In this document: positions 60,333 to 61,761 of the stretch, piece by piece | Numbering within the stretch: the stretch's first letter is position 1 | How the letters are laid out: every line of letters starts with the position of its first letter | Assembly: GCA_032164295.1 (NCBI GenBank) | Contig: JAJHTX010000009.1 | Coordinates: 1,054,001-1,118,000 of the forward strand | DNA: 64,000 nucleotides | Reading direction: 5' to 3' | Source of the DNA: Inonotus obliquus | Taxonomy: Eukaryota > Basidiomycota > Agaricomycetes > Hymenochaetales > Hymenochaetaceae | Notes under the pieces: generated by a model | The model's database searches: none | What the model was told of the DNA's origin: nothing | Seen by the model: only the letters and a program-made list of their open reading frames with translations | Made by a program: the position numbers and the translations under genes

Positions 60333-60340
60333 TAGGGTTG

Positions 60341-60515
60341 CCGAAGTCCGGTCCTTGTCCGGTCCAGTCACTTTTGCCTGGACCTCGAACCGGACCGGTC
60401 CACTTTCCAGCTCTTTGTATGGACCAGGACTGGACGGCTGGCGGACCACACTTGGACTGGACATTTGGTTCGGTCCAGGTCCGACCCTGGTCCGGACCTG
60501 GACCAGATGTATTAT
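60341..60515. repeat. Left subterminal array of GGTCCGGACC-like motifs
   Basis: About 175 bp are packed with near-palindromic GGTCC/GGACC units in both orientations. A similar array occupies about 61555-61755 at the other end. Subterminal motif clusters are known as transposase-binding sites in hAT elements; that role here is inferred. Confidence 0.75.
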
Positions 60516-60574
60516 TGTTAATTCCAATATTCTGTGAATATCTGGTTTGCCATGCACACTGTCGAAGTTTTAGA

Positions 60575-60802
60575 AACCTCACTAACCAAGTGCGTTCGAT
60601 TTTGTGAGTCACAAAGGCTGTCGCGCACGGGACTTGTCCAAGGTTGTCGACGTAGATGTGCAGGGTGAAACCGTGAACAGCATGGTTGCCCAACTATCGT
60701 CACTTGCAAACGAAGTTATCTGGGTGTCGATCGAAGTCGTTATTGCAGGTAGACTCGGTGGACAAGCATTTGTTCCTGACGTGAAAGGGGTGTGGAAGGT
60801 TA
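60575..60802 (+). pseudogene. Captured fragment of a Nik1/group III hybrid histidine kinase (HAMP repeats)
   Basis: Inside the hAT-like element the plus strand reads NLTNQVRSIL, a TGA in place of a sense codon, VTKAVA, and then after a one-base shift DLSKVVDVDVQG. It continues TVNSMVAQLSSLANEV and GGQAFVPDVKGVWKV. These are the hallmark phrases of the poly-HAMP region of fungal Nik1/Os-1 osmosensing kinases. A short internal segment between VQGE and TVNSMV, present in the family, is missing. The fragment covers roughly one HAMP unit and has no kinase domain. It ends where the oppositely oriented USP fragment begins. Confidence 0.85.
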
Positions 60803-60810
60803 GTTATAGG

Positions 60811-61525
60811 TCCGACTGTAACAATGAGTTCATGTAACATGTCGCACCCTGATTCTTTAAGCCAACATATCCCGTCTCCTTTTTTGAGTCATAGCTACAC
60901 AAAGGCATCAGAACCGTGCAAAGCTACAATGCATGAATGGGAAAACGAACTTTGAAAAGTTGTGCCATAACACTTCCGTTGGGTCCTCGAGGACACGCAC
61001 GAAAACGCTAACATCTACCGTCTCATCTTCGATCGTGGGATGGCTGTAACCCTATTGAATAGCAAACAGCTTCCTCAACTCGCTGAAACGTGTAAAACCC
61101 CAATCGCACTCATCAGCGATGAAACGATGGTGTGCATCTAGGGATAATTCTGATATTGGTCGTGCCCCAACATGCGAAAAGCTATAACTATTCGGATGAG
61201 GGGAAGTGCAAGACATACGAGAAACGGTGTGGATGGTGGGATTCGAGATGACAAAAGCGAGTTGAGCGTATGCATGCCATCCCTCTGGTGCTCTCTTTAG
61301 ATCGGCAAAGTACAGATACACGGATACGGTATCGTTCGGTGGCGCGTTTGAATTACCGAAGGGATATAAAAGTGCTTGCCTAGTAAGACGTCCAAAGATG
61401 AATGGTGAATCGTTATCACGGTGAAAGGTAAGGACGTACCAACGATGTCCCCCACCTCAAACTCCGGACTGATAATCTTCTTCTTTAATTTCCTCCGATT
61501 TGCCAGCCTCCAATGGTAAACGGTG
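60811..61525 (-). pseudogene. Captured fragment of a USP7/Ubp15-type ubiquitin-specific protease
   Basis: The minus strand encodes a MATH domain: HWRLANRRKLKKKIISPEFE, a one-base shift, GGHRW, an intron at 61380-61439, QALLYPFGNSNAPPNDTVSV and KRAPEGWHAYAQLAFVISN. After an intron at 61138-61218 it continues HAHHRFIADECDWGFTRFSE. An in-frame TAG at 61052-61054 interrupts it before HPTIEDETVDVSVFVRVLED and PTEVLWHNF. The start of the peptidase domain follows, [13 protein letters not shown] at 60811-60852, with the catalytic-Cys box intact. The order MATH then Cys box is that of USP7. Because introns are retained, the copy was made from genomic DNA. Confidence 0.88.
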
Positions 61526-61554
61526 AACGACCTTATTTTGAATTTCTTAATACG

Positions 61555-61755
61555 GAATGTGGTCCGTTGCGTACCTGCCAAACCGGTCCAGTCCAGGTCC
61601 GGACTGGTCCACCCCGGTCCGGAAAAACAGAAGGGAGCCGGACCAAGGACCGAACCAACCTGGACCTCAGCTGAACCGGACCTGAACTGGACTGGACTGT
61701 TGGTTCGGTCCGTGTCCGGACTGCGGTCCACACGGTCCAGGACCGGACTTCGGCA
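61555..61755. repeat. Right subterminal array of GGTCCGGACC-like motifs
   Basis: This is the counterpart of the left array. Units such as GGTCCAGTCC, GGTCCGGACT and GGACCGAACC recur throughout, and the outermost 23 bp are the inverted copy of the left end. Confidence 0.75.
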
Positions 61756-61761
61756 ACCCTA

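Follow-up and report, generated by a model that had tools for sequence, protein, structure and literature searches.

A non-autonomous hAT element of Inonotus obliquus very probably took up a ready-made kinase–USP chimera from another transposon

Introduction

How does a DNA transposon without a transposase come to hold pieces of two unrelated genes in opposite orientations? The question is raised by a locus of Inonotus obliquus (assembly GCA_032164295.1, contig JAJHTX010000009.1, positions 1,054,001–1,118,000 of the forward strand; this whole stretch of 64,000 nt is referred to here as the window). A sequence-only reading had described the locus as a Pack-type hAT element that had itself captured fragments of a Nik1-type histidine kinase (HK) and a USP7-type protease. 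The locus bears on the debate on host-DNA acquisition by TIR elements, in which gap repair or template switching is set against fusion of neighbouring insertions. Our analysis points strongly to one uptake, by a non-autonomous hAT MITE, of an HK–USP chimera that had been assembled beforehand in another transposon.

A bounded hAT-type element within a reading frame

The boundaries proposed earlier, with 23-bp TIRs and a perfect 8-bp TSD, were confirmed at 60333–61761, with CCTGGGAT on both sides. The element and its surroundings comprise the following features:

60211..60332, + strand: 5′ part of an interrupted reading frame (…RWLSFDEIQ), from ORF reading
60325..60332: TSD, left copy (CCTGGGAT), read from the sequence
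60333..61761: the whole hAT-type element, delimited by the TIR pair and TSD
60333..60361, + strand: left TIR arm, 29 nt at 93 %, the outermost 23 nt perfect
60333..60571, + strand: left arm of the hAT MITE, common to three empty MITEs, with abundant GGTCC/GGACC subterminal motifs
61528..61565, + strand: inner right MITE sequence including a 31-bp insertion, from comparison with MITE copies
61566..61761, + strand: right arm of the hAT MITE, from comparison with MITE copies
61733..61761, − strand: right TIR arm, pairing with 60333..60361
61762..61769: TSD, right copy (CCTGGGAT), read from the sequence
61762..62235, + strand: 3′ remainder of the same reading frame (PGMLINKTML…), from ORF reading

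Each end of the element is rich in motifs of the GGTCC type, with 19 in one terminal 180 bp and 23 in the other versus 3 in the 955-bp middle, and the family displays marks of the hAT superfamily (8-bp TSD, short TIRs and subterminal repeats). The description of the element as non-autonomous, hAT-type and devoid of a transposase stands. Among the loci compared, the 31-bp insertion near the right end is present only here and in the closest copy (L010, C11:680 kb). The element splits a reading frame that runs uninterrupted across the site in two paralogs on the same contig (FDKIQPGMLI at C9:917400 and FDEIQPGMLI at C9:920872); neither half of the frame returned a match in Pfam. At the end of this frame lies a second MITE-like element (62237–62610; 34-nt TIRs at 94 %, apparent TA duplication), which we take to be Tc1/mariner-like, and a DUF1365-type gene (PF07103, E value 5e-27) is located upstream of the hAT-type element at 55982–57924.

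Cargo and parent genes

Between the MITE arms, the element carries the following:

60572..60808, + strand: Nik1-type histidine kinase fragment (one HAMP unit and the opening bases of the next intron), 85 % to the parent gene L069
60809..60812, + strand: GGTC, the end of the kinase piece that remains after a 20-bp deletion
60804..60923, − strand: UCH Cys box (PF00443, E value 1.8e-5)
60813..61523, − strand: USP7-type fragment with introns retained, 89 % to the parent gene L070
61052..61456, − strand: MATH domain reading frame of 134 aa (PF22486, E value 2.1e-8)

The two gene pieces and their opposite orientation had been recognized correctly, as the domain matches and the parent genes attest; DNA alignment places element positions 240–476 on the kinase gene at 85 % and 481–1191 on the USP gene at 89 %. 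Both intact parents, which the sequence-only reading had proposed to look for, were found in the same genome: the kinase gene (L069) at C8:272800–277300, with HATPase matches and five HAMP matches, and the USP gene (L081 and L070) at C2:1758600–1763800, with a UCH match. The HAMP piece (60586–60837, + strand) returned no match in the Pfam search and matched PDB chain 9trk (histidine kinase) with an E value of 1.3e-16. The label 'poly-HAMP fragment' holds for the source, a poly-HAMP kinase, but not for the fragment, which contains only one HAMP unit. A protein search with the MATH frame returned 154 proteins; among the 120 listed, none of those covering at least 78 % of the query exceeded 67 % identity, and the listed relatives were named as ubiquitin carboxyl-terminal hydrolase 7 or described as hypothetical. 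In the window copy, this frame closes at a TAG, where the parent frame continues.

Introns are retained in both captured pieces: the element aligns to the USP gene straight through an intron, marked by a frame switch in the parent, and the kinase piece ends inside a parent intron. DNA, not mRNA, was therefore copied, which rules out capture via mRNA.

The hAT copy family

The genome search with TIR and interior that the earlier reading had called for revealed a family of copies whose TIR is TAGGGTTGCCGAAGTCCGG. A 19-nt TIR pattern gave 79 matches (39 + 40) at ≤2 mismatches in the 36-Mb, 30-contig genome versus 0 + 0 for the reversed pattern; the TIR is therefore not a product of chance. Searching with the whole element returned full or nearly full copies at 89–95 % identity on many contigs (40 of 122 candidates scored). 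With a gap of 3.5 kb allowed, we then clustered the 106 MATH matches, all 79 TIR ends and 106 HAMP matches out of 139 (33 were second pieces at places already counted), obtaining 100 clusters genome-wide. Cargo together with a hAT TIR was present in 37, a figure that is not an exact count of elements, as there are two at C3:1246465, and a single interrupted element may account for both C11:1001099 and C11:1009784. The remaining clusters held both gene pieces without a hAT TIR (22), MATH only (13, one being the host gene), HAMP only (19, one being the host gene and some perhaps other kinases) or a TIR only (9).

In the loci extracted, 27 copies are bounded by TIRs (24 with cargo and 3 empty), and 22 of these have perfect 8-bp TSDs, 3 have TSDs with 1–2 mismatches and 2 have none (L026 and L034). 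In the empty MITEs L071, L072 and L073 (674, 674 and 685 bp), the two arms enclose a native middle, with no cargo. Copies L004 and L005 match without a single difference over 1,408 bp and have different TSDs (CATCCATT versus GGTACTAT), and four other compared pairs are 99.1–99.6 % identical over their longest match. The earlier reading had proposed to look for sister copies with other captured genes; among the loci read, no such copy was recognized, and relatives have the same cargo or are empty. Further insertions of ~0.7–1.6 kb occur in the hAT copies L018, L019, L010/L047 and L020; one of them is common to L018 and L019 and is bordered by a repeat of 14 bp of element sequence. On C13, lone hAT TIR ends at 382985 (+) and 401661 (−) face each other 18.7 kb apart and may belong to a large or interrupted element.

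The search for an autonomous hAT with the same TIR came back empty: none of the 30 hATC matches lies between paired TIRs of the family. Only three come closer than 20 kb to a TIR end, all of them outside elements; the nearest (C11:678181) is 1.7 kb from a TIR end, and the intervening flank, as far as it was covered, showed no related end. The DUF659 profile gave no match, and neither did its control.

The chimera outside the hAT family

Seventeen carriers without a hAT TIR were read, 15 of which have the HK|USP junction and two of which (L078 and L083) have USP sequence only. The hAT copies and these 15 carriers have the same junction, and many carriers hold longer gene pieces. Counting kinase positions from C8:272800 and USP positions from C2:1758600, the kinase piece of the hAT cargo ends at 2712, while L053 and L074 continue colinearly with the kinase gene to 3343 and 3347, respectively.

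The carriers themselves are of several kinds. CACTG ends flanked by AAT were found at L059 (C3:970445), L045 with L079 (C1:3704326) and L078 with L089 (C10:1626895); L059 (C3:970367–973606) has TIRs of 51 bp at 82 %. CACTG occurs at both sides in all three copies with both ends read, as in CACTA/EnSpm-type CACT(A/G) ends, and AAT flanks both sides in all three with the same letters each time, which may reflect either a TSD of the 2–3 bp typical of that superfamily or fixed bases. The CACTA transposase family PF02992 returned no match, and its control gave none either. The left-end region of this kind is present at four places, with the match reaching the end in three; the fourth, L053 (C9:826874), has the inner part of the end only. 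In another family, C, the loci L084, L074 and L086 have ~2.9 kb in common at 93–94.5 % identity at different positions in the genome. A Helitron reading of this family was dropped, as CATCACGAAAA stands at both ends of L074 and L084 as an inverted repeat; these ends are not accompanied by a clear TSD. L051, L063 and L085 have ends related to one another (CATCGNGAAAAAG or CCCGATG), and the L063 end, CATCGAGAAAAAG, is of another kind than CACTG. Other carriers fall into families D and E (L077/L082/L087/L088; L083/L096/L097; C4:493, C6:1053 and C5:239 kb). The USP-only repeats (L083, L096, L097 and those on C4, C6 and C5) are of at least two kinds with differing flanks, and further carrier families therefore exist.

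Landmark deletions, joins and phylogeny

Two deletions order the copies. The 20-bp deletion at the junction was found in 32 of the 33 hAT loci scanned (no junction was found in L020; L029 and L031 were left out because their cargo starts past it) and in 14 of the 15 chimera carriers, and it is absent from the host kinase gene and from L075. The second, of USP 4548–4627, is scorable only in carriers reaching that far; it is shared by the basal hAT copies L032, L034 and L036 and by the carriers L045, L053, L059, L075 and L078, and is absent from the host gene. L083, which has no kinase piece, lacks this deletion and retains ~70 bp where the others lack USP 4548–4627. L078 (C10:1626700–1631700) has CACTG ends, no kinase piece and the USP deletion. 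L075 reads USP 4789..3575, HK 2432..3450 and USP 3474..3216 with small gaps, so that USP sequence lies on both sides of the kinase piece, and it keeps the 20-bp sequence at what is the ancestral junction.

The uptake itself can be read in the basal hAT copy L034, which has a 1,325-bp insert and retains the native MITE middle. At its joins, ~11 bp of the MITE (CATCATATAGG in L071) have been replaced by the insert, and GG is common to both sides at the right join.

A tree was computed with IQ-TREE from a 956-column core of 35 hAT loci, the 17 carriers and the joined host sequences as outgroup. The hAT cargos, all 35 of them, are monophyletic (98; SH-aLRT 97.5), and their clade is joined to L045, L053 and L063 with a support of 100, those three grouping together with only 78. 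AU tests, for groups defined by carrier kind and by deletion after the first tree was seen, rejected a clade of all 17 non-hAT carriers (p-AU 3.6e-7) and a clade of the 14 carriers without L075, L078 and L083 (p-AU 3.6e-4). Together with the deletion landmarks, these tests reject independent capture from the host genes. L078, although USP-only and without a kinase piece, is placed within the chimera clade as the partner of L059 (96), which carries the chimera; exchange between carriers is therefore likely, and the carriers have probably recombined with one another.

Gene fragments between TIRs with their parents elsewhere in the genome, alongside empty members, agree with the definition of Pack-TYPE elements. 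The usual, though not always required, assumption that such a fragment came directly from a gene does not hold here, given the shared deletions and the nested clade. The earlier claim of a two-gene capture by the hAT element accordingly gave way: by junction, deletions, tree and AU tests, the chimera was already present in other elements and entered the hAT family a single time.

A proposed history and its rivals

Parents, USP-only carriers, the chimera before and after the landmark deletion, the empty MITE, the MITE with a longer insert and trimmed, recently moved copies stand side by side in one genome, and the order of the steps and the joins can therefore be read. In the history that we favour, a USP stretch of ~3209–4789 would have been taken up first, giving the state seen in L083, and would then have lost 4548–4627 (the L078 state). 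A kinase piece would have been joined in reverse within this USP piece (the L075 state), with 20 bp lost subsequently at the HK|USP junction. A hAT MITE of ~680 bp would then have acquired, in a single event, the ~1.3 kb from HK 2712 to about USP 4780. The uptake probably proceeded by repair of a break inside the MITE through copying from an ectopic template, i.e. by template switching, a mode that would account for the ~11 bp missing from the MITE middle and for the ~2 bp shared at the right join. The resulting Pack-MITE, presumably mobilized by a hAT transposase in trans, would have spread to ~37 places while losing internal sequence, including the MITE middle and the USP end in most copies.

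The donor would have been a copy of another transposon, likely of the CACTG-ended kind, because L045 begins and ends with CACTG and L053 retains the inner part of such an end; the differing end of L063, the third carrier next to the hAT clade, stands in the way of proof. That end also counts against our explanation as a whole, as do the support of only 78 that unites L045, L053 and L063, the lack of a clean TSD in L034, the lack of an hATC match inside a TIR pair and the grouping of L059 with L078. A further point against it is that the longest hAT cargo stops on its right side within 1–2 bp of the carriers' USP boundary, which chance would rarely give.

This last coincidence would fit a history in which the hAT element had captured the kinase and USP pieces directly and separately, the other carriers having taken the chimera from it later, and both parent genes are indeed available in the genome. 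We consider this order of events very improbable, however, since L053 and L074 run colinearly with the kinase gene beyond the end of the hAT cargo, L075 has USP sequence flanking its kinase piece on both sides and retains the ancestral junction, and the hAT cargos are nested in the tree and share both deletions. It is equally hard to credit that the chimera is a rearranged host segment beside which transposons inserted, or that gene conversion among scattered copies propagated it. The numerous carriers with differing ends and the conflict between L059 and L078, suggestive of exchange between copies, would fit such a reading, but the hAT cargo lies inside TIRs with perfect TSDs at unrelated sites (22 of 27), it replaces ~11 bp of the MITE, and the ~2.9 kb of family C recur at several loci, flanked in L074 and L084 by ends that match. 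Nor does the local-insertion model, put forward for plant hAT and CACTA Pack-TYPEs (PMC8903248), seem at all likely here: two neighbouring MITEs flanking the chimera would have fused and then moved by their outer TIRs, whereas in L034 the MITE parts meet the insert contiguously except for ~11 bp, and neither a second MITE nor an inner TIR is necessary.

Single uptake from another transposon thus remains our preferred reading, and it carries a caution: 'chimeric multi-gene capture' need not mean several captures, and the immediate donor can be another transposon. More tentatively, and with less confidence than we would need to advocate it, one non-coding chimeric cassette may have passed among at least three unrelated DNA-transposon families of this genome (hAT, CACTG-ended and CATCACGAAAAA-ended), its homology making it a preferred repair template, so that captured fragments could act as recombination hubs for cargo swaps between superfamilies.

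Relation to known systems

The sequence-only reading had presented a chimeric two-gene hAT-like capture in a basidiomycete as little described; gene capture by hAT elements has already been published for fungi. In Dothideomycetes, transduplication of histone H3 by hAT elements is reported to have amplified host sequence to tens or hundreds of copies (PMC3538342, PMC6710886), with 8-bp TSDs and TIRs of 18–20 bp in the latter study. Those elements, like ours, are fungal hATs that multiplied host gene sequence; they involve one gene, taken from a transcript or retrocopy, in elements of 2.3–9.5 kb, some with a transposase, whereas here intron-bearing pieces of two genes reside in a transposase-less MITE whose source would be another transposon. 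Transfers between transposon superfamilies, seen as passive, are described for fungal TET/JBP genes (PMC12730594). There too, one captured gene is found in several superfamilies, hAT and EnSpm among them, and transfers are inferred; that case concerns a coding gene in several fungal lineages, and ours a single genome, in which non-autonomous elements hold a non-coding chimera of two genes and deletion landmarks give the order of the steps.

Plant Pack-TYPE elements (Pack-hAT and Pack-CACTA; PMC8903248) resemble the present family as non-autonomous TIR elements with gene pieces and with empty and filled members; fusion of neighbouring insertions is proposed for them, while here ~11 bp inside one MITE were replaced, apparently from a transposon source. 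Of 370 animal Pack-TIRs, 208 are hATs, more than in any other class, and gap-filling and FoSTeST serve as models (PMC8277862). Template switching with microhomology and a multicopy Pack-hAT, in frog, are likenesses to our case; multicopy cases are few in that work, such as the three copies in frog, compared with ~37 places and a pre-assembled chimera here. Within the titles and abstract openings surveyed, a scope outside which most subscription papers fall, we found no report of a hAT MITE receiving a gene-fragment chimera from another TIR family. Fungal hAT capture and gene passage between transposon superfamilies are thus already in print, and the ordered relay of a non-coding chimera is the variation that the present case adds.

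Decay of the captured sequence

The sequence-only reading had also suggested that the element might define a fungal exon-shuffling family and produce antisense RNA to two host genes. A family of copies does exist, but exon shuffling lacks support, as the HAMP frame is interrupted by a TAG in most hAT copies and the MATH frame, the longest ORF, is without detected selective constraint among the 22 hAT loci compared; an antisense function is unsupported on the same two counts. These 22 of the 35 loci were chosen for an open MATH frame, which makes their lack of stops uninformative; their pN/pS is 0.56, and 24 of the 62 distinct changes in the frame are synonymous versus 19.4 expected from shuffled changes (P 0.13). 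Across the 35 hAT cargos, 298 distinct changes were counted, 154 of which are C>T or G>A, 84 of these at CpG, with CpG making up 116 of the 449 cytosines. This pattern would be the mark expected of CpG methylation.
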